From: a virus
DNA length: 37,597 nucleotides
Virus record (IMG/VR): IMGVR_UViG_3300030329_006528
Span: 1 to 37,597 of that record
Reading direction: 5' to 3' (one strand)
Below are positions 6,250 to 21,671 of the stretch, in pieces. Both the position numbers and the translations under genes were made by a program. The first letter of the stretch is position 1, and every line of letters begins with the position of its first letter. The notes under the pieces are model-generated. The model ran no database searches and was not told where the DNA came from. It worked only from the letters and a program-made list of their open reading frames with translations.

Positions 6250-7002
6250 ATGGGTGAAATAAACGCACATGATAAATTAGGAGCATACATTATTCAATGT
6301 GTAAAGGAGTTAAATCTAAAGACAAATTTAGAAATAGGATCCTGGGACGGTACGGGTGCGACTAGATGTTTTATAGACGCAATGAAAGACTTTCCAGAAA
6401 AGTCTTTAACATGTTTAGAGATAGATAAGAAAAAATACAATAATCTTGTTAAAAATGTAAATGAATATTCATGGGTTAAATGTTATAATAAATCATCAAT
6501 AGATTGTAATAAGCTAATCGAGTTTGGATTTGAGAGAATGTGGAAGTCTCCCTTTAATCCATTAGTACGTTTTCCTGACGTCGAAAAGGAGACTGTGCAT
6601 CAGTGGTATAATAATGATGTTGAGATAATGAAAAAATACCCAGATGGATTTTTAGAGAGAGATAAAACAATATATGATGCTGTATTAATTGATGGTGGTG
6701 AATTTACCGGTTATTTTGAATTTGAGCTTTTAAAAAATCGAACAAACGTGTTCTTTTTAGATGATACTTTTAGATCCTATAAAACAAATAAAGCAGCTAT
6801 TATCTTATCAGAAGATTTAGAGTGGGACTGTATAGCGTATGAAAGATGTATAGAAGACATTGATTGGGGACTGGATCCGGATATAGAAAAAGAAGAAGAT
6901 ATACCTCAAGACATTCTAGAAACTATAATAGAACACCGAATGAATGTGAGAAATGGTTTTGCTATTTTTAAAAGAAAAAAATTTATAGGACATGGAGGAT
7001 AA
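6250..7002 (+). CDS. class I SAM-dependent methyltransferase-like protein
   Basis: TNLEIGSWDGTGATRCF (residues 26-41) is a SAM-binding loop, LTCLEIDKKKY gives the acidic residue after strand 2, and YDAVLIDGGEFTGYFEFELL plus TNVFFLDDTF give strands 4 and 5. This layout is that of Methyltransf_24-like proteins of surface-sugar clusters. It is the second such protein in the run and is only loosely like the one starting at 4621. It overlaps the next gene by 11 bp. The substrate cannot be predicted. Confidence 0.7.
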   Translation: MGEINAHDKLGAYIIQCVKELNLKTNLEIGSWDGTGATRCFIDAMKDFPEKSLTCLEIDKKKYNNLVKNVNEYSWVKCYNKSSIDCNKLIEFGFERMWKSPFNPLVRFPDVEKETVHQWYNNDVEIMKKYPDGFLERDKTIYDAVLIDGGEFTGYFEFELLKNRTNVFFLDDTFRSYKTNKAAIILSEDLEWDCIAYERCIEDIDWGLDPDIEKEEDIPQDILETIIEHRMNVRNGFAIFKRKKFIGHGG

Positions 7003-7702
7003 TTCTCTTGGTATAATTCAACCTGGTAAATTAGGGGACTTAATTATAGTATTACCTGCCGCAAAATATTTACATGACAAAGGGTATACAGTGCACTGGC
7101 CTGTATATGAGCAATTCGCTGATATGTTCAATGAGGTCGTTGACTATGTTAATTTTATTCCTGTAACTAATAATGTTTATAAGTGTGTTGAAGAATCTTA
7201 TAGAAAATTACATGATTTAAATGTAACCAATATTAAAGATATTGCAGCAACATTTCCGGGCAGTACATCAACAGATGAATATGTAGCGTTAGGTGATGGT
7301 AAGGTACAGTCTTTTGATGTCTTTAAATATGATAAGCTCGAAGTACCCATAGATGAAAAGTGGAATATAACAGTTAACAGGAATCACGAAGCGGAAGATA
7401 AACTCTATAACAAGTTAGTTGAGAACGAAAAATATGCAGTGGTATGTTTAAGACATTCTAGAGGTGAATTAAATGTTAAATTTGATCAATCAGATGGTCA
7501 AGTTATACATATAACAGATGATTATAATATTTTTTACTGGTTGAAAATTTTAGAGAATGCACACACTATAGCCCTGGTAGAAAGTAGTATGTCAAACTTG
7601 GTAGAGCAGTTTAGCTTTAATTGTAAGAAAATACTATTCCGAAAAATTGACAACTACTTTATGAAGCTCCCTGTAATGAAAAATAAATGGAAAATAGTAT
7701 GA
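6992..7702 (+). CDS. GT9-like (heptosyltransferase-fold) glycosyltransferase
   Basis: The start LGIIQPGKLGDLIIVLPAAKYL (residues 6-27) matches the N-terminal strand and GxLGD loop of GT9 ADP-heptose:LPS heptosyltransferases (GT-B fold). YAVVCLRHSRGE and the C-terminal ALVESSMSNLVEQFSF fit the second Rossmann domain, where GT9 enzymes have a Ser/Thr-rich turn that binds the donor. At 236 aa it is shorter than WaaC/WaaF (about 320-350 aa), so it is a reduced version. The window also carries a probable nucleotide-heptose pathway (15744-18918), making heptose a plausible donor; this is an inference. Confidence 0.62.
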   Translation: MEDNSLGIIQPGKLGDLIIVLPAAKYLHDKGYTVHWPVYEQFADMFNEVVDYVNFIPVTNNVYKCVEESYRKLHDLNVTNIKDIAATFPGSTSTDEYVALGDGKVQSFDVFKYDKLEVPIDEKWNITVNRNHEAEDKLYNKLVENEKYAVVCLRHSRGELNVKFDQSDGQVIHITDDYNIFYWLKILENAHTIALVESSMSNLVEQFSFNCKKILFRKIDNYFMKLPVMKNKWKIV

Positions 7703-8481
7703 AAAGAGTAGCGTTTACAATAATATTAAATGGCCATAGGCACTTACTGCATAATAATTATTATGAAACAATGAGTAATAATTTCGATTTATGGGTAATA
7801 GTAGAAGGAGTAGCTAATCCAGGCGGTTCAACGGAGTGGTGTAACAAACTCAGTGATTCATTTCATAATAATTTTATATCAAATGACGGTACTTCTGAAT
7901 TTTTAGATAAAAATAAAAAGGAAAATGTTATTGTAATTCGTCCTAATAACAGGCCATGGAAAAGCAAAGACGAGCAAGTTAATGCTGCTATTAAAGAAAT
8001 TAAAAAAACAGTTAAAGAGTGTTTTTTATGGCAAGTGGATATCGATGAGCAATGGACATTAGAGCAGTTACAAACAGCAGAGTCACAACTAAGTAAATTT
8101 AATGGTAAAACGGGTTGTTTTCTGTGCGATTATTTTGTAGGTCCTAATCAGCAGGTATTTGGAGAATGGGGCGAAGGCACAGGAGAGCCATATCGTAGGT
8201 TATGGAAATGGAAAGGTGAGAGTTTTAAAACACATGAACCACCTCAACTAGATGGTAAAAATGGCCCGGGTATACTTTTATCGGCTAGATTTAACCACTA
8301 CGCGTATTACTTTAAAGAAGATGTAAAATTTAAAGAAAAATATTACGGTAGCTATGATGGGTTATATGATAGATGGAAGGCAATACAAGCAAATAACAGC
8401 ACTATTCCAGTTAGCGAGCTTTTGGGCCCTAACTTAAGGTGGAGTTATACAAATACTAGCATACAATATATAGATGATTGA
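7699..8481 (+). CDS. putative GT-A glycosyltransferase (GT17-like)
   Basis: RVAFTIILNGHRHLLHNNYYETM begins a GT-A-like fold; CFLWQVDIDEQWTLEQL carries a DIDE acidic motif comparable to the DxDE of GT17-type enzymes, and SARFNHYAYYFKEDVKFKEKYYG resembles the His-containing acceptor region that follows in those proteins. The assignment is by pattern and not certain. The ATG at 7699 overlaps the previous stop as ATGA and has GGAAA upstream, so it is preferred; an ATG at 7687 is also in frame. No membrane segment is seen. Confidence 0.55.
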   Translation: MKRVAFTIILNGHRHLLHNNYYETMSNNFDLWVIVEGVANPGGSTEWCNKLSDSFHNNFISNDGTSEFLDKNKKENVIVIRPNNRPWKSKDEQVNAAIKEIKKTVKECFLWQVDIDEQWTLEQLQTAESQLSKFNGKTGCFLCDYFVGPNQQVFGEWGEGTGEPYRRLWKWKGESFKTHEPPQLDGKNGPGILLSARFNHYAYYFKEDVKFKEKYYGSYDGLYDRWKAIQANNSTIPVSELLGPNLRWSYTNTSIQYIDD

Positions 8482-9289
8482 TGGTAATAACTTTTTAAGG
8501 CATCATATTAAAAATGATATACCCTTTGCTGCCGGTAAAATTGGAGGAACAGAGCTTAAACTTTTAGCTACATATCTCTCAGAGTCTGAGATACCACCAG
8601 ACTTAAAGGCTGAAGCAGAAAACGTATCCGGGCTTGTACCAACAACGATAGAAACTTTAAACTGGTTTTCAAAAACGTTTTTAGATGCTTTACCAACTAT
8701 GGATATGTTATGCGAATGGAGCCGAATTATTCCGCAGCTGGAAAAGAGTCTTATCGTAAATAAAGCTAAGGCTCATTCCACGCCGCTGCAACATTTAGAG
8801 CCATATTTTTTTGAAAATCCTTGGACTGAGTGCTTAGAAGGTAAAAAAGTACTAGTTTTTTCGCCATTTGCTGATAGTTTTACTGAAAATTTTCCTAAAT
8901 TAGATAAAATATGGAACAATAAAATAGTTCCTAATTTTGAATTACAGGCTGTAAGATATCCTACCTCTATTACCATTACCGACAATAGTAATTACGGTAA
9001 TTATAAAGAAATATATGACAAATATATAAAAATTATTAATGAAGAAGAGTTTGACGTTGGTATTTTTGGAACAGGCTACACTGGATTATTGTTTGCTTCG
9101 GAATGTAAAAAGATAGGCCGGTCGGGCATACATTTAGGCGGTGCAACACAAATTTTATTTGGTGTTATTGGTAATAGATGGAAAGCTATTAGTGAATTTG
9201 ACCCATTCTTTAATGAGCACTGGACAACCCCTAAAGAGGATGAAACGCCTAGGGATGTTGATTGTGTTGAAGATGCCTGTTACTGGTAA
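8474..9289 (+). CDS. GT-D-fold-like glycosyltransferase candidate
   Basis: Two blocks resemble the GT-D fold (DUF1792-type) transferases: PFAAGKIGGTELKLL (residues 17-31, in the place of their RxGDGE/DxE region) and the C-terminal DVGIFGTGYTGLLFASECKK with IHLGGATQILFGVIGNRW (219-236). The middle segment GKKVLVFSPFADSF is a Rossmann-like strand. The HLGG-Q-FG-RW block is one I associate with surface-polysaccharide and aquatic viral proteins. 271 aa fits a single domain. It overlaps its neighbours by 8 bp and 1 bp. Function as a transferase is an inference from the fold. Confidence 0.55.
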   Translation: MIDGNNFLRHHIKNDIPFAAGKIGGTELKLLATYLSESEIPPDLKAEAENVSGLVPTTIETLNWFSKTFLDALPTMDMLCEWSRIIPQLEKSLIVNKAKAHSTPLQHLEPYFFENPWTECLEGKKVLVFSPFADSFTENFPKLDKIWNNKIVPNFELQAVRYPTSITITDNSNYGNYKEIYDKYIKIINEEEFDVGIFGTGYTGLLFASECKKIGRSGIHLGGATQILFGVIGNRWKAISEFDPFFNEHWTTPKEDETPRDVDCVEDACYW

Positions 9290-10065
9290 TGAGCACAATA
9301 GTAGTTCAATATAATCCTGATGGTAGGATGGGTAACAGGATGTTTCAATATGCGTTTGGTTATATATTATCTCAAAAAGGAAACAAGGAAATAATTCATG
9401 ACGAATTACCTAATTTTGGTATACCAAATAACCATAAACCGGTTAAAGCAAGTGGAGAAGTAATTAGTACATACCAAAAGTGGGGTCAAAATTATGCAGA
9501 TATGGATCTTCTTATGAACCACGACGGTCCAATAATTATTAATTCATTTCTTCAAAAAAGCTGCTACTATAAAAAATATAGAGACTTATTAAGAGATGTA
9601 TTTACTATAAAGGAGCTTGATACCATTAACAAAGATTATCTTGTGGTACATGTACGTGAAACTGATTATACGCAAATTGATACTTTTCTAGGTTATGATT
9701 TTTATAAATCTCTAATTGATAATTCTGGATTTACTAAAATTAAAATAGTAACAGATAATTCAAATTGTGATACGGTAAAAAAATTAGCTAGCGAGGGGTG
9801 TGAGCTAGTCACAGAAGGATATGTAGACAAGTTTGAATTTCATAGTAATAAAAGATCTATAAGTGATTTTAAGACCTTATTATATAGTGAAAATATAGCA
9901 CTATCGCAATCATCTTTTTCTTGGTGGGCAGCTTTTTTAGGTTACCATAAAAAAATTATTTTTCCCTTTTCAGCAAACGTTAAAATGTGGCCTATAGATC
10001 CAGGTAAAGATGATGTAGATTTATATTTTGATTTTAATGGAGAATCAACTAAGTATGTGATGTAA
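9289..10065 (+). CDS. GT11 fucosyltransferase-like protein
   Basis: GT11 enzymes (alpha-1,2-fucosyltransferases such as FutC/WbsJ) transfer fucose from GDP-fucose. All three landmarks are seen: GRMGNRMFQYAFGYIL (residues 12-27), the donor-binding HVRETDY (121-127, family HxRRxDY) and ALSQSSFSWWAAFLG near the C-terminus. At 258 aa it is slightly shorter than the usual 280-300. The first Arg of HxRRxDY is kept (HVRETDY) and the second is replaced by Glu. It sits in the middle of the island with a 1 bp overlap upstream. No GDP-fucose synthesis genes (gmd, fcl) are present here, so the donor would come from the host or from genes outside the window. Confidence 0.86.
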   Translation: MSTIVVQYNPDGRMGNRMFQYAFGYILSQKGNKEIIHDELPNFGIPNNHKPVKASGEVISTYQKWGQNYADMDLLMNHDGPIIINSFLQKSCYYKKYRDLLRDVFTIKELDTINKDYLVVHVRETDYTQIDTFLGYDFYKSLIDNSGFTKIKIVTDNSNCDTVKKLASEGCELVTEGYVDKFEFHSNKRSISDFKTLLYSENIALSQSSFSWWAAFLGYHKKIIFPFSANVKMWPIDPGKDDVDLYFDFNGESTKYVM

Positions 10066-10067
10066 TA

Positions 10068-10919
10068 ATGTCAAAAGAAACCAATTTTATTTTATTTCAT
10101 AAAGGACATAATTTGCCTCAGCATATAAGAGTATGTGTAGATCAAATTAAAAAGACGCAGACCAACTACAAAATATTTTTATTAACAGATTTAAAAATAG
10201 ATAATAGTGGTGATGTTATTATTATTGATATTAATCAATACCATATACCATTAGACAATATAACCTACTATAAAGGCCATCAGGACCCTTTATGGCGCAC
10301 TGCTTTCGAGAGACTTTTTTACATTAACGAATTTATTAAGCACTACAACTTAACTAACATCGTACACTTTGATAATGATGTCTTAATCTATAAAAATATT
10401 GCAGATATTTCTGCTCTGCTAAGTGATAATATACCAAACATCGGCCTTACGCCGCATAAAGAAAATGAACTTGTATGTGGATTTATGTTTCTAAAGAACA
10501 GTAATTCTTTAGAAGTAGTATGTAAAGAATTGTTAAATCTTGCTGTATTAGGGGAAAATAAATTAGAAGAGATGCTTAAAAGCATGCCTCATGAAATGAG
10601 ACTGCTAGGCCACTTACAAAATAATGTATTAGAAAAAGATATCATTACTTCGTTACCGGTTTCCCCTATAGAGCCAGGTAATAATTTGTTTACGATATTT
10701 AACGGTGTGTTTGACCCTAGTTCTTATGGGCAGTTTTTTGGACTCGATAATACAATTCACCCCGATGGTGCTAATAGGTTTATTGATAGGTATATAAACA
10801 AAGAATTTATACCTGTTTTTGATCGCTACGAGCCCTATATAGTATGGAATAAAAAACAAGTGCCTATTTTCAATCTGCATATACATAATAAACACCTTGA
10901 ACGATATGCTAGCAGGTGA
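10068..10919 (+). CDS. GT-A glycosyltransferase-like protein
   Basis: TNFILFHKGHNLPQHIRVCVDQI resembles the beginning of capsular-polysaccharide GT-A transferases; LWRTAFERLFYINEFI followed by IVHFDNDVLIYKN (FDND at residues 101-104) is the helix plus metal-binding motif arrangement of that fold. FNLHIHNKHLERY near the C-terminus gives the histidine expected to close the metal site. The family could not be named. It overlaps the next frame by 23 bp if the TTG start of that gene is used. Confidence 0.65.
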   Translation: MSKETNFILFHKGHNLPQHIRVCVDQIKKTQTNYKIFLLTDLKIDNSGDVIIIDINQYHIPLDNITYYKGHQDPLWRTAFERLFYINEFIKHYNLTNIVHFDNDVLIYKNIADISALLSDNIPNIGLTPHKENELVCGFMFLKNSNSLEVVCKELLNLAVLGENKLEEMLKSMPHEMRLLGHLQNNVLEKDIITSLPVSPIEPGNNLFTIFNGVFDPSSYGQFFGLDNTIHPDGANRFIDRYINKEFIPVFDRYEPYIVWNKKQVPIFNLHIHNKHLERYASR

Positions 10920-11727
10920 ACAATTCCAGTCATTATGTCAAATAGGGTTTTATACAGAAATCAATTCTATTATTGAAGATCAAAATAAAGCCTTTAAGCA
11001 GAATATACATAAAATATCTAATGTAAGTATTGAAGATATTAAAAAATATAAAACAATTTTTATTTATACTCACTTTGTGTATGACTTTATGCACAAATTT
11101 TTAGACTATCTAGATAATGCTACTATAGTAACACATAACTCAGATCACAGTATAAATAATGAACACTTACAATATCTTAATCATAAGAACATAAACAAAT
11201 GGTTTTGCCAAAATAGGGAGACGTCACATTCAAAATTATTTTCAATACCTATAGGAATAGCAAACAGCCAATGGCCACACGGCAACCAGGATGCTATTAA
11301 AAGTATAAAAGAAAACGATACATTAAAAACAAATTTAGTGTATAAGAATTTTCAAGTAGACACCAATCATGGTGAGCGCGCTTTATGTAATCATATTACT
11401 AATACAAATGGTATATTAATGAATAATAATACATCACAACAAATGTATTGGAATAATATTAAAAAAAGTCTATTTGTTATATCCCCACCCGGTAACGGAA
11501 TCGATTGTCACCGTATATGGGAATGCCTTTACTTACGTTCTGTACCAGTAGTAAAATACCATGAAGCATTTTCTCAATTTAAACATCTACCTATTCTCTT
11601 TATAGATGATTGGAACGAGGTAACGGTAGATTTTTTAAGATCAAAGATCGAAAACTACATAAATTTTGACTTTAATATTCCAGATCTTACTTTAAAATAT
11701 TGGAGAGATAAAATAATAAATGGTTAA
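10897..11727 (+). CDS. exostosin/GT47-like glycosyltransferase
   Basis: The diagnostic block is KKSLFVISPPGNGIDCHRIWECLYLRSVPVV at residues 189-219; the pattern SPxGxGxDCHRxWExLxxGxxPVV is that of exostosin-domain (GT47-like) GT-B transferases, the donor-binding part of the C-terminal Rossmann domain. The N-terminal half is divergent. The longest frame starts at a TTG at 10897; an ATG three codons later (10906) is equally good. It ends 8 bp inside the aminotransferase gene. Donor sugar unknown. A second gene of this type lies at 18958. Confidence 0.68.
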   Translation: MNDMLAGEQFQSLCQIGFYTEINSIIEDQNKAFKQNIHKISNVSIEDIKKYKTIFIYTHFVYDFMHKFLDYLDNATIVTHNSDHSINNEHLQYLNHKNINKWFCQNRETSHSKLFSIPIGIANSQWPHGNQDAIKSIKENDTLKTNLVYKNFQVDTNHGERALCNHITNTNGILMNNNTSQQMYWNNIKKSLFVISPPGNGIDCHRIWECLYLRSVPVVKYHEAFSQFKHLPILFIDDWNEVTVDFLRSKIENYINFDFNIPDLTLKYWRDKIING

Positions 11728-12751
11728 GAACATTCCTAGAGTTAGAAAAAAATTTAAAGATGGTTATACATATCTTAATAGGAATATGATAATGGACTGT
11801 CACCCGGATCATATTTACCATAAGTTAATAAACACGTTTAAAGCTGAAGATCTACATCAATACCCAGATATGTTTCCACCGTATGAGCTTCTAGGGAAAT
11901 ATTTAAATGTCAGTGAAGATCAATTATTATTAACCCGAGGGGTTGAAGGTTCAATTAAAACAATTTTTGAATCGTTAAATTTAAGTGGTGAATGTGTTGG
12001 GGTATTTGTTCCAACATGTGCAATGTTTAAAGTATATGCTGATGTTTTTAATGTAAACTTTATACCCATTAAGGGACAAGCACCAGAATATAATATCAGT
12101 GTACAGCAAGTAAAGGATGTAGTACCAAAAATTAAAGTACTTTTTTTGACAAATCCAATGTCACATTTGGAAAACTGCTTTTCAAACGAAGAGTTACAAG
12201 ATCTAATTTGTTTTTGTCAGAAGCACAATGTTTTAGTTTTTTTAGATGAGGTATATACTGGGTGGGAAAATAAAAGTTATTTACCATTTTTAGAAAAACA
12301 CGATAATCTTATTATATCCTCAAGCTTTTCGAAAATTGGATTTCCGTCAATAAAGACGGGGTGGTTGGCTTGTAACAAAAAATTAAAAACTCAACTTGAA
12401 GCTACAAGAGGGGCTTACGAACTAGATTATTTCTCAAATAAAACTCTAGAATTTATTATTAATAACAAGGACTATTTTAAAGAACTAAAGAAAAATCTTT
12501 TACTCACAAAGAAAAAATGGATTGAGTACTTCTCTGCTAATAGTAATTTTAAGGTATATAATTCATCATTATATACCGTAAGACTATACTCTGAAAATAA
12601 AAAACTAGTAAAACGTATATTTGATAATTTATATTCAAAAAAAATTGTAGTAAATGTGCTAGATGAAACTAATTTACAGTTTTCTGTATCCACTAATCCC
12701 AAAATAGAAAAATTGATTTTTAGTGAAATTACGGTAAATACCAGAAAGTAA
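11720..12751 (+). CDS. class I/II PLP-dependent aminotransferase, HisC-like
   Basis: Fold-type I aminotransferase related to histidinol-phosphate aminotransferase. Visible are LLLTRGVEGSIKTIF (cofactor phosphate helix), TNPMSH (Asn145), VFLDEVYTGW (Asp176 pairs with the PLP nitrogen) and SSSFSKIGFPSIKTGW with Lys205 as the Schiff-base lysine. The C-terminal Arg that binds the substrate carboxylate in HisC-type enzymes (LRISxG) appears to be Gln320 in LQFSVST, so the substrate may not be an ordinary amino acid, or the reaction may be a decarboxylation. It may aminate a sugar or make a non-sugar side group. Its stop shares one base with the next gene, a cupin, suggesting joint action. Confidence 0.8.
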   Translation: MVKNIPRVRKKFKDGYTYLNRNMIMDCHPDHIYHKLINTFKAEDLHQYPDMFPPYELLGKYLNVSEDQLLLTRGVEGSIKTIFESLNLSGECVGVFVPTCAMFKVYADVFNVNFIPIKGQAPEYNISVQQVKDVVPKIKVLFLTNPMSHLENCFSNEELQDLICFCQKHNVLVFLDEVYTGWENKSYLPFLEKHDNLIISSSFSKIGFPSIKTGWLACNKKLKTQLEATRGAYELDYFSNKTLEFIINNKDYFKELKKNLLLTKKKWIEYFSANSNFKVYNSSLYTVRLYSENKKLVKRIFDNLYSKKIVVNVLDETNLQFSVSTNPKIEKLIFSEITVNTRK

Positions 12752-13104
12752 TGAAGGCGGGTAAAATATGGGGCGAAACAGAGCTACTCCACGCTAATGG
12801 GGTGTTAGAGTTTCATAGAATCCAATTTAAAGCAAAGGCTCAATGCTCAAAACATAAGCATCAATTTAAATGGAATGGATTTTTTGTGGAATCTGGAGAA
12901 CTATTAGTTCGTGTATGGTCAAGAGAAGATGAGATTGATGTTGACGTAGTTGATACTATTTTAAAACCAGGAGACTTTATGCAAGTTAAGCCTGGCTTAT
13001 ATCACCAATTCGAAGGTATAAAAGCAGGTGTTGCTTTTGAATTATATTGGGCAGAATTTAACCATGGTGATATAATAAGAGAAACTTTTGGAAAGGAAAT
13101 TTAA
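12751..13104 (+). CDS. single-domain cupin protein
   Basis: A small beta-barrel cupin. Motif 1 is seen as CSKHKHQFKWNGFFVESGELLV (His35 and His37) and motif 2 as LKPGDFMQVKPGLYHQFE (His85), giving the metal-binding histidines. 117 aa is one complete cupin domain. Such proteins in sugar clusters act as isomerases, epimerases or metal-dependent modifying enzymes; nothing here fixes the reaction. It shares one base with the aminotransferase upstream and lies 2 bp before a zinc-ribbon methyltransferase, so the three genes may form one tailoring step. Confidence 0.75.
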   Translation: MKAGKIWGETELLHANGVLEFHRIQFKAKAQCSKHKHQFKWNGFFVESGELLVRVWSREDEIDVDVVDTILKPGDFMQVKPGLYHQFEGIKAGVAFELYWAEFNHGDIIRETFGKEI

Positions 13105-14088: not shown

Positions 14089-15027
14089 GTGGTAAAGCAA
14101 GAACATAAAAATAGTGGATTTTTCTATAAACCATCTGGGGTAGCTAATGAAGAAACTCGTAAATGGTTGCCTAGAGATTTTGACTCAAAACTAATTACAC
14201 ATAGTGTAAAAAGAAATATAGATAGAAAGCGAACTTCAATTGACCACGTACATATGGTCAACGATGTACCGTTGTTTAGCTGGGTGGAGTTAAATCTAAA
14301 TGAACTATGCAATCGTAAATGTGCATTTTGTCCGCGGAGTGGAGATTACCCTAATCAAAATCTTCATATGGATCCCGGGCTAGCTGCAGCTATTGCATTA
14401 CAATTAGATGAGTTAGATTTTTCCGGGACAGTTAACATTAGCGGTACTGGTGAACCTCTCTTAACAAGAAACCTTCTTGAGATTGTAAAGTGCTTTTGTG
14501 ATAGGCAAATAGGCATTGAGATTGTAACAAATGGAGATAAGTTAACCCCTGCCCTTATAAAAGATTTATATTCAATCGGCCTTTCACAACTAGTTGTAAG
14601 TATGTATGATGGTCCAGAGCAGATAGACTATTTTAATAACCTATTTAAAGAATGTAAAATTGATAAGTCCAAGTACACGCTCCGCGATCGTTGGTACAGT
14701 GAAGATGAAGATTTTGGTTTGATCTATACTAATCGTACCGGTGCTCAGAAAGAACTCAAAAAGGCTGCAACAAGGCCCTGTTATTATCCTCACTATGCAT
14801 TATATATAGATTGGAACGGTGATGTTTTATTATGCTGTCAAGATATGTATAACCGGACAGTTAAATTTGGTAACGTAGTAGAAAAACCTATTTTTAATAT
14901 ATGGCGAGATAAGCGATTAAAAGATTTTAGAGATAAGCTTAAAAATGGACAGCGTTGTTTATCTCCTTGTTCAAATTGCGATGCTAACGGTATGCTATTC
15001 GGAAAAAATCACGCAGCAAAGTGGTAA
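14089..15027 (+). CDS. radical SAM/SPASM domain protein
   Basis: The [4Fe-4S] radical SAM motif is CNRKCAFCPR (Cys74, Cys78, Cys81) followed by the SAM-binding SGTGEPLL and EIVTNGDKLT. A C-terminal SPASM region carries further cysteines (RPCYYPHYALYIDWNGDVLLCC, FGNV, IWRD, then CLSPCSNC) for an auxiliary cluster. Proteins of this shape recur in surface-polysaccharide clusters and in peptide-maturation systems; the reaction here is unknown. The start is a GTG at 14089, 4 bp after the previous stop; no ATG fits between. The core in vitro reaction would need SAM and an electron donor from the host. Confidence 0.85.
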   Translation: MVKQEHKNSGFFYKPSGVANEETRKWLPRDFDSKLITHSVKRNIDRKRTSIDHVHMVNDVPLFSWVELNLNELCNRKCAFCPRSGDYPNQNLHMDPGLAAAIALQLDELDFSGTVNISGTGEPLLTRNLLEIVKCFCDRQIGIEIVTNGDKLTPALIKDLYSIGLSQLVVSMYDGPEQIDYFNNLFKECKIDKSKYTLRDRWYSEDEDFGLIYTNRTGAQKELKKAATRPCYYPHYALYIDWNGDVLLCCQDMYNRTVKFGNVVEKPIFNIWRDKRLKDFRDKLKNGQRCLSPCSNCDANGMLFGKNHAAKW

Positions 15028-15033
15028 AAAAAA

Positions 15034-15747
15034 ATGAGTTATAGTTACGATAATATACAAGATTTTAAAGATATACATAAGGGTAAACGAGCTATTGTAT
15101 GCGGTACGGGACCCTCTTTAAATGATATTAATTTTGACTTAATATCCTCAGATGAAAATATAATTTTTGCGTGCAATCAATCTGTTACTGCTCTTTCTAG
15201 GTGTGATTATTTTTGCTTAGCTGACAATGCAATTGTAATAATGCCGTTTTTTGAATATGGTATTAATATCGCTACTAAAGTTATAGCTATGGGCAATCTT
15301 CTCGATTTAGTAGGAAATTGTCATGATCCGGATCAAGAACGTAAATTAACAGAAATGTTGGAGAGTAAGGTGCATATTTTACCGAGAAAGGACAATCACA
15401 GTCTCGAATTTAGTAAATCTGGCTCTATTATTCGTGGTCCAGCTGGAGAAGATGTAATTCATGTTACATCTCACCTTGCATATATTATGGGATGTAGAGA
15501 AATTGTATTAGCTGGAGTTGATCTTACTGTGAACAACGGCATATATTGTAACCCTACAACTTATAAAAAGGAAGTTGATTGGTCCGGAGTAGCCCCGGTT
15601 AATAATCCACAATTTTTAGATGCATCTTACAACACGTGGCTAAAAGTAAAAGAAATTAATAGCAATATAAAATTTTTAGATGCCTCGCCACGCGGAAGAT
15701 TAAATGAGATATTTGATTCTATATCAATTGAATCTTTATATAGTTAA
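15034..15747 (+). CDS. DUF115/GT42-like Rossmann protein
   Basis: KRAIVCGTGPSLNDINFDLI (residues 18-37) with IFACNQSV and the later EDVIHVTSHLAYIMGCREIVLAGVDL are the pattern shared by DUF115 (MptE-like) proteins and GT42 bacterial sialyltransferases such as Cst-II (GNGPSL, CNQ, and a helix-strand ending in SGID). A CMP-sugar transferase is therefore possible, but a DUF115 protein of unknown function is just as likely. At 237 aa it is near the length of Cst-II's catalytic core. It is the last gene of the plus-strand run and its TAA overlaps the TAA of the opposite-strand gene (TTAA shared by both). Confidence 0.6.
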   Translation: MSYSYDNIQDFKDIHKGKRAIVCGTGPSLNDINFDLISSDENIIFACNQSVTALSRCDYFCLADNAIVIMPFFEYGINIATKVIAMGNLLDLVGNCHDPDQERKLTEMLESKVHILPRKDNHSLEFSKSGSIIRGPAGEDVIHVTSHLAYIMGCREIVLAGVDLTVNNGIYCNPTTYKKEVDWSGVAPVNNPQFLDASYNTWLKVKEINSNIKFLDASPRGRLNEIFDSISIESLYS

Positions 15748-16082
15748 TCCGGGTCACCAAAAAAAAGCCAATCCGACATTCCTTTATCGTCAATAAACTT
15801 GTCGGCTCCTGGCTTACCTAGGAACAGTTGATGATATTTTACATTCCAAGAATCTAATTGCTTTTTGGTAAAGTCATACATTTCCTCATGAGCTTTAGCT
15901 TGATCATTATTAGTTCTACCCATGCCTCTAGCAGTCATAAAGAAAATAGTATGGCCCTGATCATATAGCTCATTAACCTTTTCTATCCTTTTTGTATGCG
16001 GTGTACTTTTGTCGTAGGGTCCCATGTCGGGGCTATGACAAATAGTATTGTCAATATCAAAGCAATAAGTTAATTTATCCAT
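15744..16082 (-). CDS. small HAD-superfamily phosphatase
   Basis: HAD motifs are seen in order: CFDIDNTIC (Asp9, Asp11), FFMTARG (Thr50), LGKPGADKFIDDKG (Lys90 and Asp98/Asp99). 112 aa with no cap domain matches the small capsule-cluster HAD phosphatases. It is the last gene of the minus-strand operon and overlaps the transaldolase gene by 13 bp. In the heptose pathway the 7-phosphate of the bisphosphate is removed by GmhB, also a HAD enzyme; this gene could do that job although GmhB is larger (about 190 aa). That role is inferred from context. Confidence 0.78.
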   Translation of the reverse strand: MDKLTYCFDIDNTICHSPDMGPYDKSTPHTKRIEKVNELYDQGHTIFFMTARGMGRTNNDQAKAHEEMYDFTKKQLDSWNVKYHQLFLGKPGADKFIDDKGMSDWLFFGDPD

Positions 16083-16738
16083 TCTTTAAAGTCTGTTAAA
16101 AATTGATCAACTGATGATTGGGTACCGGGATGTGTTGTACCTTTTTTTATTACATCATAACCGGCAGTTACAATATCTGCCCCGCCAACCCATGCATCCG
16201 TAATATCTTTAGGTGTGCGAATACTACCTGCGATAATTTTGCAATTTAGGTTATTACTCTTAATAAATTTAGAAGCATCATCCAGTGTACAAAATTCATC
16301 TTCACCACTGTCTTTTGCTCTATTATAAAAAAATGACACATATCGGGCGCCAGCCGCGGCAGCCAAAGTTAATTGCGAGGTAGTAAAACAACATGTACAA
16401 TTAACGCGCGCACCGACAGCAGCAAGTTTACTAATAGTCTCTAATTCATTAAATCCAACGGGTATTTTTATGTTTAAATTGTGGTAACCTATATCCTCCT
16501 CTAGGCGCAAAGCCTGTTGATAAATTTCATCTTGGTCAGTAGCAAACACCTCAACACTAAGTGGGATGTTATTATATTTTTGACAAATTTCTGCAATTTT
16601 TATCATATGATTTACGTAACTACCTCTAGGTTCCTTAGACATTAAGGATGGGTTTGTAGTTACACCAGAAATAATTCCACGCTTGCATGCTGAGGAAATT
16701 TCATCAAGATTAGCAGTATCGATAAAGAGCTGTCGCAT
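16070..16738 (-). CDS. talC: TalC-type transaldolase
   Basis: Transaldolase moves a dihydroxyacetone unit between sugar phosphates and interconverts fructose 6-phosphate plus erythrose 4-phosphate with sedoheptulose 7-phosphate plus glyceraldehyde 3-phosphate. Visible active-site residues are Asp7 (FIDTANLDEI), Asn29 (GVTTNPSLM), Glu63 (SVEVFATD) and the Schiff-base Lys91 (NIKIPV), followed by AGSIRTP. Glu63, where fructose-6-phosphate aldolases have Gln, favours transaldolase. Marine cyanophages carry TalC as a pentose-phosphate auxiliary gene, but here the neighbours are heptose genes, so it may serve sedoheptulose 7-phosphate supply. 222 aa is the normal family length. The start is followed by 30 bp to the cupin gene. 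Confidence 0.88.
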   Translation of the reverse strand: MRQLFIDTANLDEISSACKRGIISGVTTNPSLMSKEPRGSYVNHMIKIAEICQKYNNIPLSVEVFATDQDEIYQQALRLEEDIGYHNLNIKIPVGFNELETISKLAAVGARVNCTCCFTTSQLTLAAAAGARYVSFFYNRAKDSGEDEFCTLDDASKFIKSNNLNCKIIAGSIRTPKDITDAWVGGADIVTAGYDVIKKGTTHPGTQSSVDQFLTDFKEWIN

Positions 16739-16768
16739 ACCTATATAATAGATATTAACTGTAATTTA

Positions 16769-17182
16769 TCAACTATCTTCAGTAAACTTATAGGTTTTAC
16801 CGTCCTCTACAATGTGAGAATCGCCGTCGTCATCTTTGTTAGACCACTCGATAATAATAGTATCCTCTAGGGCTATTCTCATATGCATTAACCCGGGAGG
16901 TATGTGGTATACATCGTTTTCCTCCAGTGTAACCGACGTATTCTCTGCACGACCGATGCGATGACCAACCTTTAGTTTACCGGAAAAAATATAATAAAAT
17001 TCATCTTTATTGCAGTGATATTCCATGCTACTCTGACTGCCCCTTTTCATGAAAATCTTCTTTAAAGTAAAGTTTTCATCGGCAAAAACAGAAGTAATAT
17101 ATCCCCAGTACTTATCCTTATGTAGAATAGGTTTTAGTATCGGAGGAAGATGTTGGATTCCAAATTCGTTATCTTTCTTCAT
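16769..17182 (-). CDS. cupin protein, mannose-6-phosphate isomerase type II-like
   Basis: A single cupin domain: FTLKKIFMKRGSQSSMEYHC with EFYYIFSGKLKVGH (motif 1, His then Glu) and ENDVYHIPPGLMHMRI (motif 2, His). The arrangement resembles the C-terminal cupin of type II phosphomannose isomerases. The ATG at 17182 gives 137 aa and overlaps the kinase gene by 14 bp; a longer frame to 17281 lies wholly inside the kinase and was not used. It is the third gene of the minus-strand operon, between the kinase and the transaldolase, so an isomerase or epimerase step on a heptose or related sugar phosphate is plausible but unproven. Confidence 0.75.
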   Translation of the reverse strand: MKKDNEFGIQHLPPILKPILHKDKYWGYITSVFADENFTLKKIFMKRGSQSSMEYHCNKDEFYYIFSGKLKVGHRIGRAENTSVTLEENDVYHIPPGLMHMRIALEDTIIIEWSNKDDDGDSHIVEDGKTYKFTEDS

Positions 17183-18065
17183 ATCGCTTTTTAAATAGTT
17201 CAAAACTCGGCGGTGTAGCTCCCTTAGTTTCTGTAGATAGACCCGCCCATAAATTACATTTATATAGTACTTCTTCCACATCGTGGCTCCAGTCTTGAGT
17301 AGCTAACATAGCAATAAAACTATCACCGGCACCACATGTATCCACCACCGTAGTATCGATACTCGGAACGTGAATATCCTTAAATTTACTACCCCTACTA
17401 CCCATAGTTTCTACAACCTGACACTTAGACCATGGAAAAGAACTTGACCACTCCTTTGCCTCTTCTTCATTTAGTACAATTAAATCACAACCATTAAACT
17501 TTGATAATTGTAGAGTTGTTTTATTTCCCCAATCAGAAAGTTGACCGGTCCCAATACACGGAATTGATAATTTCTCACATATATCTATTACACCTGCTGT
17601 TACTTTTTTAGTTAATACACCGCATCTGTAATCACTTAAAATAACACACTCATAATGAGGTAATATGTTGGTTAGTTCATCAATAACATCTTCTTCTGAC
17701 CCTGGATTAAGTTCATCGCTATCAGTATAATTCATCTGCAAGTACTTGTGTTGTACATGATTTCTGTCAACATAATACCGCTGTTTTGAAGAGGTTTGTT
17801 TTTTTGTTGTAATACAGTGTACATTTACTTTTTGTGATAGATCATCATACACAGTTGTATCACTACATATGGTCATATAACCGACATTACACTCTAAAGC
17901 GACTAAATTCATGACAACATTACCTGATCCACCAGGGCTTTTTTTTGTCGATGTATGTTCACATTTTATTGTAGGAGACTCAAGCGAAAGACCAACAGCT
18001 TGACCGGTAATATACTCGTCAATTATTAAATCACCTATTACAAATATTTTTTTTCTATCAAGCAT
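17169..18065 (-). CDS. hldE1-like: PfkB-family heptose kinase, HldE domain I-like
   Basis: HldE's first domain phosphorylates D-glycero-D-manno-heptose 7-phosphate at C1. The protein has IFVIGDLIIDEYITG at the start, SLESPTIKCEHT with SPGGSGNVVMNLVALECNVG (PfkB signature 1, as in HldE's SPEAP...PGGAANVAMN), and DTCGAGDSF (residues 242-250; signature 2 with catalytic Asp248). 298 aa is the length of the HldE kinase domain alone. In enterobacteria the kinase and adenylyltransferase are one polypeptide; here they are separate genes overlapping by 8 bp. A different PfkB sugar kinase cannot be excluded, but the neighbouring HldE-type adenylyltransferase makes heptose the best guess. Confidence 0.82.
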   Translation of the reverse strand: MLDRKKIFVIGDLIIDEYITGQAVGLSLESPTIKCEHTSTKKSPGGSGNVVMNLVALECNVGYMTICSDTTVYDDLSQKVNVHCITTKKQTSSKQRYYVDRNHVQHKYLQMNYTDSDELNPGSEEDVIDELTNILPHYECVILSDYRCGVLTKKVTAGVIDICEKLSIPCIGTGQLSDWGNKTTLQLSKFNGCDLIVLNEEEAKEWSSSFPWSKCQVVETMGSRGSKFKDIHVPSIDTTVVDTCGAGDSFIAMLATQDWSHDVEEVLYKCNLWAGLSTETKGATPPSFELFKKRYEER

Positions 18066-18918
18066 ACTGTTTAATTTTTTCTACAACTCTCGTTGTAGAG
18101 TAAACGTCTTGGTTAAGCAATGAAGCAACTTTTACATCTATATGATTAGGGATTTCATCTCGTTCACGAACTTCAGCAGCTGTAAATTCCCCGCCCTTTA
18201 CAACAATATCTGGACCAATGTCATTGATAATATTTTTTGTGTCGATATCATTAAAAACAACAACTTCATCAACAAGAGATATATATGACAGTATTTTTTT
18301 GCGGTCTTTTTGATTGTTTATTGGCCTCTGAGAACCTTTAATTTTTTTTGTAGACTCGTCAGAGTTAATACCAACTACTAATTTATCTCCTAAACTTTTT
18401 GCAAATTTTAATGTTTCTAAATGACCAGCATGTAGTATATCAAACACCCCATTTGTAAATACTATAGATTGTGGCTTATGTCTGGATATTTTTTCTACCC
18501 TTTTAACATGACGTCCTTCACCAAATTGTGTGCCGAGCCACTCATTTAAAATTAATTCAGATGCTTTTGGCGTACTTATCCAGCTCCCTAGGCATAAAAT
18601 ATTAGAATCGTTATGCTCTCTGCATTTAGGGGCACTATCCAAATTATGAATTAAAGTCGCCCGTACGTTTTTAAATCGATTAGCAGCAATACTCATTCCA
18701 ACACCTGTACCGCAAATTAGAATGCCCTTTTTAATATCACCACTATCGATAATATTTCCCATTTGATAAGCATAGTCAACGTAGTCTACTGACTCTTTAT
18801 TATATGGGCCTAGATCAACGACATTAATATTTTTTTGCTTTAAGCAATTATAAAGAAAGTCCTTAAGATCAACTCCATTATGATCGGAAGCTATAGCAAT
18901 TGTTGTATCTAGGCTCAT
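18058..18918 (-). CDS. RpiB-type isomerase fused to HldE-type adenylyltransferase
   Basis: Residues 1-145 are an RpiB/LacA sugar-phosphate isomerase: IAIASDHNGVDLKDFL, DYVDYA, the catalytic Cys69 in GILICGTGVGMSIAAN, His102 in REHNDSNIL and the ending EGRHVKRVEKI. Residues 151-285 are a nucleotidyltransferase very like HldE domain II (heptose 1-phosphate adenylyltransferase): VFTNGVFDILHAGHLETLKF with HAGH at 163-166, NSDESTKKIKG, DIVVKGGEF and YSTTRVVEKI. The linker is only about 6 residues and the reading frame is unbroken. It is the first gene of the minus-strand operon. Both halves keep their key residues, so a bifunctional enzyme acting at the start and end of a nucleotide-sugar pathway is likely; the substrate of the RpiB half is inferred. 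Confidence 0.88.
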   Translation of the reverse strand: MSLDTTIAIASDHNGVDLKDFLYNCLKQKNINVVDLGPYNKESVDYVDYAYQMGNIIDSGDIKKGILICGTGVGMSIAANRFKNVRATLIHNLDSAPKCREHNDSNILCLGSWISTPKASELILNEWLGTQFGEGRHVKRVEKISRHKPQSIVFTNGVFDILHAGHLETLKFAKSLGDKLVVGINSDESTKKIKGSQRPINNQKDRKKILSYISLVDEVVVFNDIDTKNIINDIGPDIVVKGGEFTAAEVRERDEIPNHIDVKVASLLNQDVYSTTRVVEKIKQYA

Positions 18919-18957: not shown

Positions 18958-19854
18958 TTGACTTTACCCGGTCATTATTTAAATAATGCAGTGATTGGAA
19001 TTATATGTAAGGACGATATCGCTGCATTAAATCCTAGCTTGTTTTTAAATTTTAGACTCGGATTAACAAATTATCTTAAGACCAAATTTGTAGAAGTAAA
19101 TGACATTAACGATCTAGAAGATATTACTACGCTAATTATTGTTGATGAGCACTTTGGCTCACATGTATCAATATGGAAAGATGACCCTCAATTTGTTAAT
19201 GAATTAAACAATCGTAAAATAAAAACAATAGTCTTTAATTTTGAAAAAATCTTTAACAGTAAGTTTCCATGGAATGTAGATCATCAAAAGCGGCTAGAAT
19301 CTATTAATGATTTATATCAACTAGTAAGTGATGTAGATGATGCTATTACCCTCAATAAAAAAATTATTAACAAACAATTGCTATCTAAAGACTTAAAACT
19401 TGAACATCACACAGTAGAAAGAGAAAATAGAATTTTATTTTTAGGTCAATCAGATCCGGTCTATGATCCGAGCTGGTCTTATTCAAGAAGATTTAACGTT
19501 CTTAATGACTTAAGATCTCGACCTGACCTACCTTTAGATATTCATGTTACAGAACGAAAACTTCCATATAAAGAATTTTTAACAAAATTAGCAAGTTATA
19601 AATTTATTCTTAATCCACTTGGCACTGGAGATTTTATTAACATCCGCTTTTATGAAGCACTTAGACTTGGTTGCATTCCAATCCAACAAGTAACCGAAAA
19701 CATGCTTAATAGATACTCTGAACTTTCACCGAATATATGCCATCGGTTTAAAACTACTGATGAGGTGTGTTTACCGACACGGGCCTTTAAAAAATTTAAC
19801 TCTTCCTTAGAGGATTATTTTGAAGAAATACAGCTTATAAAACAAATTAATTAA
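18958..19854 (+). CDS. exostosin/GT47-like glycosyltransferase
   Basis: LASYKFILNPLGTGDFINIRFYEALRLGCIPIQ (residues 211-243) is the donor-binding block of exostosin-like GT-B enzymes: a strand, a Gly-rich turn, then the R-x-x-E-AL-LG-IP motif. RILFLGQSDP and DIHVTERKLPYKEFLTKL support the same C-terminal domain. The best start is a TTG at 18958; there is no suitable ATG nearby. It diverges from the heptose operon and is followed 2 bp later by an FkbM methyltransferase. It has the same motif as the protein at 10897 but otherwise differs. Confidence 0.65.
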   Translation: MTLPGHYLNNAVIGIICKDDIAALNPSLFLNFRLGLTNYLKTKFVEVNDINDLEDITTLIIVDEHFGSHVSIWKDDPQFVNELNNRKIKTIVFNFEKIFNSKFPWNVDHQKRLESINDLYQLVSDVDDAITLNKKIINKQLLSKDLKLEHHTVERENRILFLGQSDPVYDPSWSYSRRFNVLNDLRSRPDLPLDIHVTERKLPYKEFLTKLASYKFILNPLGTGDFINIRFYEALRLGCIPIQQVTENMLNRYSELSPNICHRFKTTDEVCLPTRAFKKFNSSLEDYFEEIQLIKQIN

Positions 19855-20730: not shown

Positions 20731-21312
20731 ATGATAATTGAACAGGGAGTCTATGACGGTAAATTAATTCATGAAAGATTTGCCTATAAGTTTTTTCGTA
20801 AAGAGGTTTCACCGTATGGTAATATTGTAGCATTTCGAGCTCCAATGTATGTGGAAGATGCATTAATTGATTTAGAAGATTCTTTAAGCGATGACCATAT
20901 TCATAGTCAAGATGCGATTAATTTTTGTTGGGAAATACCTGGTGTATGCCCCCTAGGGGCAGTGTCCTTCCAGAGACTTTTTAATACTGCAGTAGCAAAT
21001 ATACTATCAGGCATTATACAAAAAGGAATAATGATAGATGGTGATGATATTATGGTACAAGATAAATTTGTTGGTAATGATGATAAGGTTAGAGAATCAG
21101 GCAAAGTAAGTGTATCTATTACCTATTCCAAGGATAATGTTACATTAGGTCATACAGGAATTAATATCAAGGCAGGAGACAAAGCCCCGGGATTTGCATA
21201 CTCGTCCAATTTGTCAGATGATCAAGTTGATTATTTTATTAATGCAGTAGTTGATTATTTTAATGACGAAGTAAAAGATCAGTTTGTTGCAACTACAAAA
21301 ATAATTGTATGA
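20731..21312 (+). CDS. DUF366-like protein
   Basis: The pattern YDGKLIHERFAYKFF, NIVAFRAPMYVE, LIDLEDSL, HSQDAINFCWEI and later KVSVSITYSKDNVTLGHTGINI matches what I recall of DUF366, a family known from archaea and some phages with no firm function. 193 aa is the family length. It has an ATAAGG ribosome-binding-like sequence just before the ATG. Its last 4 bp overlap the clamp-loader-like gene, so the two are co-expressed. No membrane segment or Cys cluster is visible. Confidence 0.6.
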   Translation: MIIEQGVYDGKLIHERFAYKFFRKEVSPYGNIVAFRAPMYVEDALIDLEDSLSDDHIHSQDAINFCWEIPGVCPLGAVSFQRLFNTAVANILSGIIQKGIMIDGDDIMVQDKFVGNDDKVRESGKVSVSITYSKDNVTLGHTGINIKAGDKAPGFAYSSNLSDDQVDYFINAVVDYFNDEVKDQFVATTKIIV

Positions 21313-21671
21313 ATTTTTTTCAGCTTCAAAATAAATTATTTTACTCTAAAAAGGAAGAGGCAGGTGACCTAGATACAGAGGGAGAACAAGCATTTGTCCC
21401 TTTTTTGCTTAACAGGTGGCTTTCGTTCTACAATAAAGATATGTCAGTGTTTGTAAATGAAACGCTTAATAAATTTAGCGGTATCTTTGACGATAAGCAA
21501 AAAAGTTATAAGCTATATTACTATTTTATTCCTAAGTTAAAATGGAAAAAAATAAAGTACATCAAAAAAAATAAAAAGGAAGCTGAGGAAGAGGAAAATT
21601 TAGCCGCTATAGCTAAAAATAAAAATATATCAAAAAGGGAGCTTAAAGAATATATAAAGAATTATGAGTAG
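21309..21671 (+). CDS. gp62: gp62-like clamp-loader small subunit (tentative)
   Basis: In T4, gp62 with gp44 loads the gp45 sliding clamp. FVPFLLNRWLSFYNKDMSVFVNETLNKF followed by DDKQKSYKLYYYFIPKLKWKKIKYIKK fits the pattern I associate with phage clamp loader subunit A proteins (a NR-LS start, an aNe-n segment, a d-k-qY-f block and a basic pk-rf-kw block). At 120 aa it is much shorter than T4 gp62 (187 aa) but close to the short forms of marine phages. The C-terminus is lysine- and glutamate-rich helix. gp44 and gp45 are not in the window. Confidence 0.5.
   Translation: MNFFQLQNKLFYSKKEEAGDLDTEGEQAFVPFLLNRWLSFYNKDMSVFVNETLNKFSGIFDDKQKSYKLYYYFIPKLKWKKIKYIKKNKKEAEEEENLAAIAKNKNISKRELKEYIKNYE

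Follow-up and report, generated by a model that had tools for sequence, protein, structure and literature searches.

The bacterial ADP-heptose pathway consists of GmhA, HldE, GmhB, and HldD, and heptose-related genes also occur in phages. A passage of the genome announcement of the isolated phage SynMITS9220M01 reports heptose-related lipopolysaccharide (LPS) genes (PMC7378029), part of a study of pelagimyophages counts rfaE among the LPS genes and argues for a change of the O-chain (PMC7029224), and a section of a study of Lake Baikal viromes lists gmhC, for heptose 7-phosphate kinase, among auxiliary genes (PMC9611531). Here, we analyze a five-gene operon in the IMG/VR virus record IMGVR_UViG_3300030329_006528 (37,597 bases, hereafter the window), a fragment of a T4-like phage, a marine virus of bacteria. 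The operon shares 1-kinase, phosphatase, and nucleotidyltransferase chemistry with the ADP-heptose pathway, and its kinase and nucleotidyltransferase domains are homologous to HldE domains I and II. Unlike that pathway, the operon and its relatives add an RpiB fusion, the transaldolase TalC, the AraD-like epimerase, and a cupin, and the substrate motifs are changed. GmhA is not found in the window, and neither GmhB nor an HldD-like protein is found in the fusion loci examined.

An earlier sequence-only reading took the operon for a complete nucleotide-heptose pathway. We tentatively propose instead that it encodes a dedicated phage nucleotide-sugar pathway, the product of which is most likely a nucleoside diphosphate (NDP)-heptose other than the standard D-glycero-D-manno form. 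The fusion of RpiB to the nucleotidyltransferase may be the signature protein of this pathway. As far as the open-access PMC literature was searched, no description of the fusion or of the six-gene module to which the operon belongs was found, and blastn finds no DNA match of positions 16070-18918 in named phages.

Results

The five genes of the operon

Five open reading frames (ORFs) on the minus strand, at positions 15744-18918 of the window, are confirmed. The families, place, and strand given in the sequence-only reading stand. The cupin start does not, and the genes are overlapping or closely spaced rather than overlapping throughout, as a 30-base gap separates the cupin and transaldolase genes.

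The first gene (18058-18918) encodes an RpiB-family isomerase domain and an HldE-II/TagD-type nucleotidyltransferase domain in one protein. The isomerase half matches the LacAB_rpiB profile with 162 bits over residues 7-144. The nucleotidyltransferase half (approximately residues 150-284) matches CTP_transf_like and rfaE_dom_II, and its best profile is HldE domain II with 144.6 bits (under the cut-off of 181.5), compared with only 52.5 bits for glycerol-3-phosphate cytidylyltransferase.

The second gene (17169-18065) encodes a PfkB-family kinase that resembles HldA and HldE domain I. The best NCBIfam match is rfaE_dom_I (127 bits, cut-off 345), and a profile search ranks HldA first with 101.9 bits and ribokinase next with 66.9 bits. 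The predicted model (predicted local distance difference test score, pLDDT, 89.9) has four HldA entries as its top neighbors, with Z scores from 32.2 (root-mean-square deviation, rmsd, 2.4 over 277 aligned residues) to 29.1; the next family follows at 27.8 (rmsd 2.9, 271 aligned) and lower. By profile and predicted fold, the kinase is thus closest to the heptose-7-phosphate kinase HldA. The HldE-like character claimed earlier for the kinase and the nucleotidyltransferase holds for both by profile and for the kinase also by predicted fold. A clear match of either to families acting on other substrates, which had been named as a test, is not seen; HldA and HldE domain II match best.

The third gene encodes a single-domain cupin of the type II phosphomannose-isomerase-like kind. 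The ORF as listed begins at 17281, inside the kinase gene; judged by homologs, the probable start is the ATG at 17182, which places the gene at 16769-17182 (137 residues). The protein matches PF01050 (25.2 bits) and PF00190 (23.2 bits), both just over the cut-off, and its best NCBIfam match, GMP_PMI (31.9 bits), lies far under the cut-off. It carries the metal-site pattern ExH....E...H, the first part of which (ExH....E) is present in 47 of the 52 cupins scored, the other five having no pattern match. The predicted model (pLDDT 92.2) superimposes on the cupin domain of CapF (3st7; Z 15.2, rmsd 1.9, 108 aligned), on an archaeal phosphomannose isomerase (7zvy; Z 14.8, rmsd 2.1, 104 aligned), and on a D-lyxose isomerase (2y0o; Z 13.6, rmsd 2.9, 113 aligned). 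Many other cupins score equally or almost equally, so the fold fails to assign a role. Two D-lyxose isomerases are among 20 PDB profile matches, behind cupins that are not isomerases. The predicted structure fits, without proving, a role as sugar isomerase or epimerase.

The fourth gene (16070-16738) encodes TalC, a transaldolase of the size of fructose-6-phosphate aldolase (FSA), which matches the TAL_FSA profile over the cut-off (136.7 bits). The catalytic residues named in the sequence-only reading (D7, N29, E63, and K91) are correct, Lys91 being the Schiff-base residue. At the positions of Gln59 and Tyr131 of FsaA, which we take to tell transaldolase from aldolase, TalC has Glu and Phe in 50/50 loci and in 34/34 cluster representatives, as does Escherichia coli TalB in the alignment. 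Asp6, Asn28, Lys85, Arg134, and Ser166 are also kept in the cluster representatives (n = 34). Judged by these residues, TalC carries the signature of a transaldolase and not of an aldolase, in accordance with the earlier identification.

The fifth gene (15744-16082) encodes a small HAD phosphatase that resembles EcbF and BcbF. The best NCBIfam match is EcbF-BcbF (32 bits, cut-off 162), and PHROG 1238 matches with 93.7 bits. The HAD motifs in the window are DIDNT, TAR, and GKP...DDK. The pattern of the third motif is found in 35 of 48 copies, and the others shown differ from it by one or two letters.

Distribution of the operon

Loci were collected in three scans. The first scan of IMG/VR kept the best 80 of 269 loci; 14 of these contain the full fusion, and the other 66 the nucleotidyltransferase half alone. 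A genome scan kept the best 80 of 575 loci, two of which carry the full fusion: Pelagibacteraceae AG-900-G16 (L087) and a Ca. Kaiserbacteria metagenome-assembled genome (L088). A second, alignment-based scan of IMG/VR kept the best 80 loci and led to a set of 56 loci, all with the fusion. At 95% identity, these form 39 clusters, namely 36 other IMG/VR records, the window, and the two cellular loci. The search of viral databases suggested in the sequence-only reading thus yields 39 dereplicated loci, two of them cellular. All counts cover the kept loci, with ORFs from a simple caller; many loci are fragmentary, so the absence of a single gene is not firm.

Among the 39 fusion clusters, the kinase is present in 36, the cupin in 34, TalC in 34, and the HAD protein in 33. 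A sixth core gene, encoding AraD of the L-ribulose-5-phosphate 4-epimerase family, is present in 33. It is absent from the window, from the whole 197-kb record of L002 (= L189), from the records of L012 (= L210) and L013, which have the same genes, and from loci L231, L240, and L206, the last of which ends just past the fusion gene. The module thus comprises six genes, of which the window shows a version with five. The set is spread among diverse phages, one SAR11 genome, and one Kaiserbacteria genome.

The nearest relative of the window is L002, with 85% DNA identity over 9.8 kb. The ratio of nonsynonymous to synonymous substitution rates (dN/dS) relative to L002 is 0.036 for the RpiB–nucleotidyltransferase, 0.108 for the kinase, 0.044 for the cupin, 0.089 for TalC, and 0.048 for the HAD protein; all five genes are under purifying selection. 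Conservation across 39 dereplicated loci together with low dN/dS rules out chance ORFs.

Changes at the substrate sites

The catalytic residues of the RpiB domain are retained. Cys69, His102, and Asn103 are kept in the window protein, and in E. coli numbering Asp9, His10, Cys66, His99, and Asn100 are present in 56/56 fusion loci; residue 68 is Thr in 54 and Ser in two. In contrast, the window protein has Trp113 at the site of the phosphate-binding Arg. In E. coli numbering, Arg110 is exchanged for Trp, and Val11 for Asn, in 56/56 fusion loci and 39/39 clusters. The Arg110 site holds Arg in nine and Lys in two of 11 housekeeping RpiB controls from SAR11; among 29 other controls, four of them under the rpiB cut-off, it holds Arg in 28, and the five PDB alignments listed, two of which are one enzyme by sequence, show Arg as well. 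We equate E. coli Arg110 with Arg113 of Mycobacterium tuberculosis RpiB by numbering offset, not by structure comparison. In the part of the source dealing with it, Arg113 binds phosphate, and its exchange is the sole structural difference from the site of LacAB, the six-carbon enzyme used for comparison (PMC3755991); a passage of another study includes Arg113 in its list of positive residues that recognize the substrate (PMC4783025).

AraD presents a parallel case. The three zinc-binding His residues and Asp120 are present in 33/33 clusters, and Tyr229 in 32/33. Ser75, which in E. coli AraD we take to help bind phosphate, is Ser in 14/14 controls but in 0/33 clusters, where it is replaced by Val (27), Thr (5), or Ile (1); in the 47 operon copies the figures are 40, 6, and 1. 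The Trp in RpiB and the loss of Ser75 in AraD would fit a phosphate placed otherwise than in a normal pentose 5-phosphate.

The kinase and nucleotidyltransferase differ from HldE at diagnostic motifs. The lid motif of the window kinase is GLSLESPT, compared with RxSPEAPV of HldE domain I. The pattern G..LE[ST]PT is found in 14 of 18 kinases of fusion loci; of the remaining four, two do not match the pattern, one is a variant in L087, and one is a second copy in L005. By comparison, R.SPE[AG]PV is found in 64/65 phage HldE kinases (one without a match), and an Arg-bearing lid motif in 23 of 28 bacterial kinases (five without a match). In the nucleotidyltransferase, GGEF..VRERD stands in place of GGDY. 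The Glu (G[GS]E[WF]) is found in 17/17 fusions of the first set and in 38/39 clusters of the second set, one being without a pattern match, whereas the Asp (GGD[YW]) is found in 66/66 phage HldE loci. The bacterial matches (n = 72) comprise 53 with Asp, one with Glu, and 18 without a pattern match. The R.SPEAPV and GGD motifs shift together in the same lineage.

Two phages carry a second kinase–nucleotidyltransferase pair and cupin beside the shifted set, at L005:11682-13167 (the same record as L198) and L202:10675-11860. The second sets have GGDY and the Arg-bearing lid motifs RLSLEAPV and RLCPEAPV. Judged by the presence of two sets with different diagnostic motifs in one phage, these phages likely make two different activated sugars.

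Related gene sets in phages and cells

A phage module of HldE, HldD, GmhB, and a cupin (L016-L081) shares homologous kinase, nucleotidyltransferase, and cupin with the operon. These 66 HldE-type loci lack RpiB by selection. Unlike in the operon, the kinase is fused to the nucleotidyltransferase (65/66 loci), and HldD-like and often GmhB proteins are present. Among the 27 clusters of this module, the cupin is found in 24, the HldD-like gene in 25, GmhB in 18, and all three in 18. GmhA, TalC, AraD, and the small HAD are absent from the fetched loci of these clusters, and SIS_2 (GmhA) has no match in the 20 records searched whole, most of which are probably fragments. In L017 (module at 7248-11651), HldE (268 bits, cut-off 521), the heptose 6-epimerase (246.6 bits, cut-off 274.6), and GmhB (146 bits, cut-off 178) come near their curated cut-offs without reaching them. 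This module is more likely than the operon to be a phage ADP-heptose pathway, one in which a cupin would stand in for GmhA.

The cyanophages P-TIM68, S-SSM7, S-T4, S-SM2, and S-CAM3 (Kyanoviridae, T4-GC304-308) encode the same kinase, nucleotidyltransferase, HAD, and cupin families, as assigned by annotation and/or by profiles made here. The kinase of S-T4 is annotated as cytidyltransferase-related, and the nucleotidyltransferase of S-CAM3 is detected by profile alone. In contrast to the operon, the nucleotidyltransferase is not fused to RpiB and keeps the Asp in its motif (5/5), the kinases have the Arg-bearing lid motif in the 4/5 that match the pattern, and a transketolase and/or nucleotide-sugar epimerase lies nearby in place of TalC and AraD; in S-SM2, a distant class II aldolase is encoded as well. 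The sequence-only reading knew of no described phage with this set. This stands for the fusion operon as far as searched, but not for the four-gene core, and heptose genes were already announced, in the relevant passage, for an isolated phage (PMC7378029).

RefSeq and PHROG 1238 name the cyanophage HAD protein (L082:7745-8083, L083:8082-8417, L084:8921-9268, L085:11354-11686, and L086:6710-7030) phosphoheptose isomerase; it aligns with HAD phosphatases and has the DxDxT motif. The neighboring cupin, where named, is called cysteine dioxygenase in RefSeq. Both database names mislead.

SynMITS9220M01, an isolated cyanophage, has a GDP-heptose-like gene set, so that heptose-type genes do occur in an isolated phage. 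Its genes (L304:30428-44002) encode two HddA-like kinases (286.7 bits, cut-off 600), a GmhA-like SIS protein (47, cut-off 209), an HddC-like nucleotidyltransferase (60, cut-off 300), and a KdsC-like phosphatase; none of them reaches its curated cut-off. HddA and HddC presumably differ from HldE in fold family. A portion of one study describes WcbL as a GHMP kinase (PMC4691232).

The two cellular loci resemble surface-sugar loci and share the RpiB–nucleotidyltransferase fusion, the kinase, a two-domain cupin, and AraD. L087 also has TalC and the HAD protein, whereas L088 has another HAD type. L087 further encodes a GmhA-like SIS protein (63.9 bits, cut-off 276), the sole GmhA in the 39 fusion clusters, and a GT9 gene. 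In this SAR11 genome, the operon (L087:2824-11492) lies beside these two genes and a CMP-Kdo-synthetase-like gene recognized by eye, and its TalC is the sole TAL_FSA match. In L088 (8001-12671), the operon genes lie beside an apparent ABC exporter and a glycosyltransferase, also recognized by eye.

Neighboring genes, target, and host

Genes for a T4-type portal, head protease, major head protein, and sheath stabilizer are encoded around the operon. A long run of glycosyltransferase-like genes is also recognized there by eye, with one sub-threshold GT2 match. In other loci, a GT9 gene (heptosyltransferase family) adjoins the operon in L087 (67.5 bits, over the cut-off), GT9-like domain genes adjoin it in L004 (24.0 bits) and L009 (26.8 bits), both over the cut-off, and a GT9-like domain lies one gene away in L006 (18.2 bits, under the cut-off). 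Two GT1/GT4-type genes are found upstream of the operon in nine loci each; in L009, the copy scanned, one passes the Pfam cut-off and the other does not. Because of the glycosyltransferase-like genes nearby, the GT1/GT4-type genes upstream, and the GT9 or GT9-like genes in four loci, we infer that the target would be a glycan of the host envelope or of the virion.

The operon is flanked, for context, by two plus-strand genes: 15034-15747, encoding an MptE-like protein (PF01973), the end of which overlaps the last gene of the operon, and 18958-19854, encoding a protein with a weak exostosin/GT47 match below the Pfam cut-off. Methyltransferase and radical-SAM genes around the operon score over Pfam cut-offs. 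A radical SAM/SPASM protein is encoded two genes from the operon (14089-15027), a radical-SAM-like Fer4_12 protein near the left end (626-1414), and a DUF366 family protein, over the Pfam cut-off and here in a phage, at 20731-21312. At 11720-13104, a class I/II aminotransferase is followed by another small cupin, an arrangement conserved in L002; the pair possibly belongs to a second small-molecule pathway.

Of 2,487 records matching the major head protein of the window, the 12 listed share 31.7-32.6% identity with it. We considered whether TalC and RpiB from the phage might supply functions missing in a SAR11 host. In the family of SAR11 genome G015, TAL_FSA is found in 82/99 genomes, and the fusion profile matches 88/99, 85 over the RpiB half and three over the nucleotidyltransferase half alone, with the full fusion in 1/99. 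These counts do not support such a gap in this family.

Discussion

Four observations bear on the role of the operon: the gene families, the conservation of the module, the retained catalytic residues, and the concerted changes of substrate contacts. From them, we infer every substrate, the order of the steps, the nucleotide, and the final target in the following proposal. TalC would convert fructose 6-phosphate and erythrose 4-phosphate to sedoheptulose 7-phosphate, a seven-carbon ketose phosphate, which the AraD-like enzyme, where present, would epimerize at C4. The cupin, the RpiB domain, or both would convert the ketose phosphate to an aldose phosphate; RpiB, together with AraD, may precede TalC or use the TalC product. 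The HldA-like kinase would then phosphorylate C1, the HAD protein would remove the terminal phosphate, and the nucleotidyltransferase domain would convert the sugar to an NDP-aldose, the fusion of an isomerase to this last enzyme serving channeling. The NDP-sugar would be passed to glycosyltransferases, altering the host surface or the virion.

The sequence-only reading proposed that RpiB or the cupin replaces GmhA. RpiB and the cupin occur together (the cupin in 34/39 fusion clusters), so at most one does. In our analysis, the cupin appears to be the better candidate for the ketose–aldose step, because phages with the near-canonical HldE module keep a homologous cupin without RpiB, which points to the cupin as the replacement of GmhA.

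Several points weigh against an NDP-heptose. The RpiB half is over the ribose-5-phosphate isomerase equivalog cut-off (150.2 versus 138.65 bits). AraD is over the cut-off of the L-ribulose-5-phosphate 4-epimerase subfamily NF006047 (257 bits) in L009 (269.4) and L088 (274.1), but not in L087 (179.7); the equivalog TIGR00760 (389.1) is missed by all three, with 240.9, 256.1, and 159.5 bits, respectively. Glu142 of AraD is kept in 29/33 clusters, with Gly in the other four. E. coli RpiB, with the Arg present, is also annotated as an isomerase of the six-carbon allose 6-phosphate, so a longer substrate does not follow from the missing Arg; the Trp is kept in phages without AraD. RpiB and the cupin make two isomerase candidates, one more than a plain heptose route needs. 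TalC is found in 0/27 HldE-module clusters' loci and TAL_FSA in 0/20 records searched whole, so a heptose route by itself needs no TalC. An HldD-like gene is found in 0/17 fusion loci, including the window, by BLAST with the HldD-like query of L017. The gene at 6992, read earlier as a GT9-like heptosyltransferase, matches no Pfam family at E <= 5. A broader claim, which we hold with less assurance than the NDP-heptose proposal, is that the pathway is an undescribed one, with an NDP-octose, or an NDP-heptose of a stereochemistry made by no known pathway, as its product.

A doubtful alternative is a pentose route. AraD would convert xylulose 5-phosphate to L-ribulose 5-phosphate, RpiB would yield an aldopentose 5-phosphate, the kinase, HAD protein, and nucleotidyltransferase would make an NDP-pentose, and TalC would refill the pool. 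RpiB and AraD do belong to pentose-phosphate families, with the cut-offs passed by RpiB and by two of the three AraD copies scanned, and the first and last enzymes, RpiB and the nucleotidyltransferase, would be one protein. However, each of the two pentose-family enzymes is without a phosphate-site residue in every copy, the kinase is nearest to HldA and not to ribokinase, and the cupin and a dedicated TalC would be unneeded; TAL_FSA and RpiB matches are, moreover, common in the family of G015, the one candidate host family examined.

An octose route is improbable, although no other order that we found employs all seven activities once each. RpiB, after AraD, would supply an aldopentose 5-phosphate, which TalC would extend by three carbons to an octulose 8-phosphate; the cupin would form an aldo-octose 8-phosphate, and the kinase, HAD protein, and nucleotidyltransferase an NDP-octose. 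Transaldolase accepts pentose 5-phosphates as acceptors. TalC and AraD go with the fusion lineage (14/17 and 13/17 loci) and are found in 0/66 HldE-type loci, and the near-canonical HldE modules come with the cupin rather than with RpiB. The argument for an eight-carbon product is nevertheless one of parsimony, and the RpiB residues are the same in phages without AraD.

We consider it similarly improbable that the operon makes standard ADP-D-glycero-D-manno-heptose, with GmhA replaced by the cupin or RpiB and GmhB by the small HAD. The family assignments of the kinase and nucleotidyltransferase agree with this pathway, and a cupin stands at the place of GmhA in phages with HldE, an HldD-like protein, and often GmhB. 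The completeness claimed in the sequence-only reading does not hold, however: AraD is lacking in the window, GmhA/SIS (PF13580) has no match in the window or in the 14 phage records with the fusion, which may be fragments, and the E. coli GmhB profile finds 0/17 and 0/39 fusion loci, a shorter HAD of another subfamily being present instead, besides the missing HldD-like gene. The NAD epimerase at 21664 of the window was rejected as HldD, as GalE matches it better (153 versus 115 bits). Furthermore, the diagnostic motifs of the kinase and nucleotidyltransferase and the sites of RpiB and AraD are changed, the substrate-site residues differing in step from the heptose and ribose enzymes; AraD is present in 33/39 clusters; and two phages carry a second, canonical-type set beside the shifted one.

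That the operon boosts the pentose phosphate pathway for phage replication, like cyanophage talC, with the sugar-activating genes as incidental neighbors, is very improbable: TalC-like sequences are common in phage records (502/50,697 match, mostly cyanophages), but the fusion and its neighborhood are conserved across 39 clusters, and the kinase, HAD protein, and nucleotidyltransferase have no place in that pathway.

If the proposal of a dedicated nucleotide-sugar pathway is true, phages go beyond isolated heptose genes and carry a full, self-contained set of steps that turns central metabolites into an activated rare sugar. The enzymes of this route would be altered at their phosphate-binding sites and would form a compact set open to testing, and their product would be a candidate new nucleotide sugar. 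The phosphomannose-isomerase-like cupin would, in turn, be the candidate replacement of GmhA in phage heptose modules.

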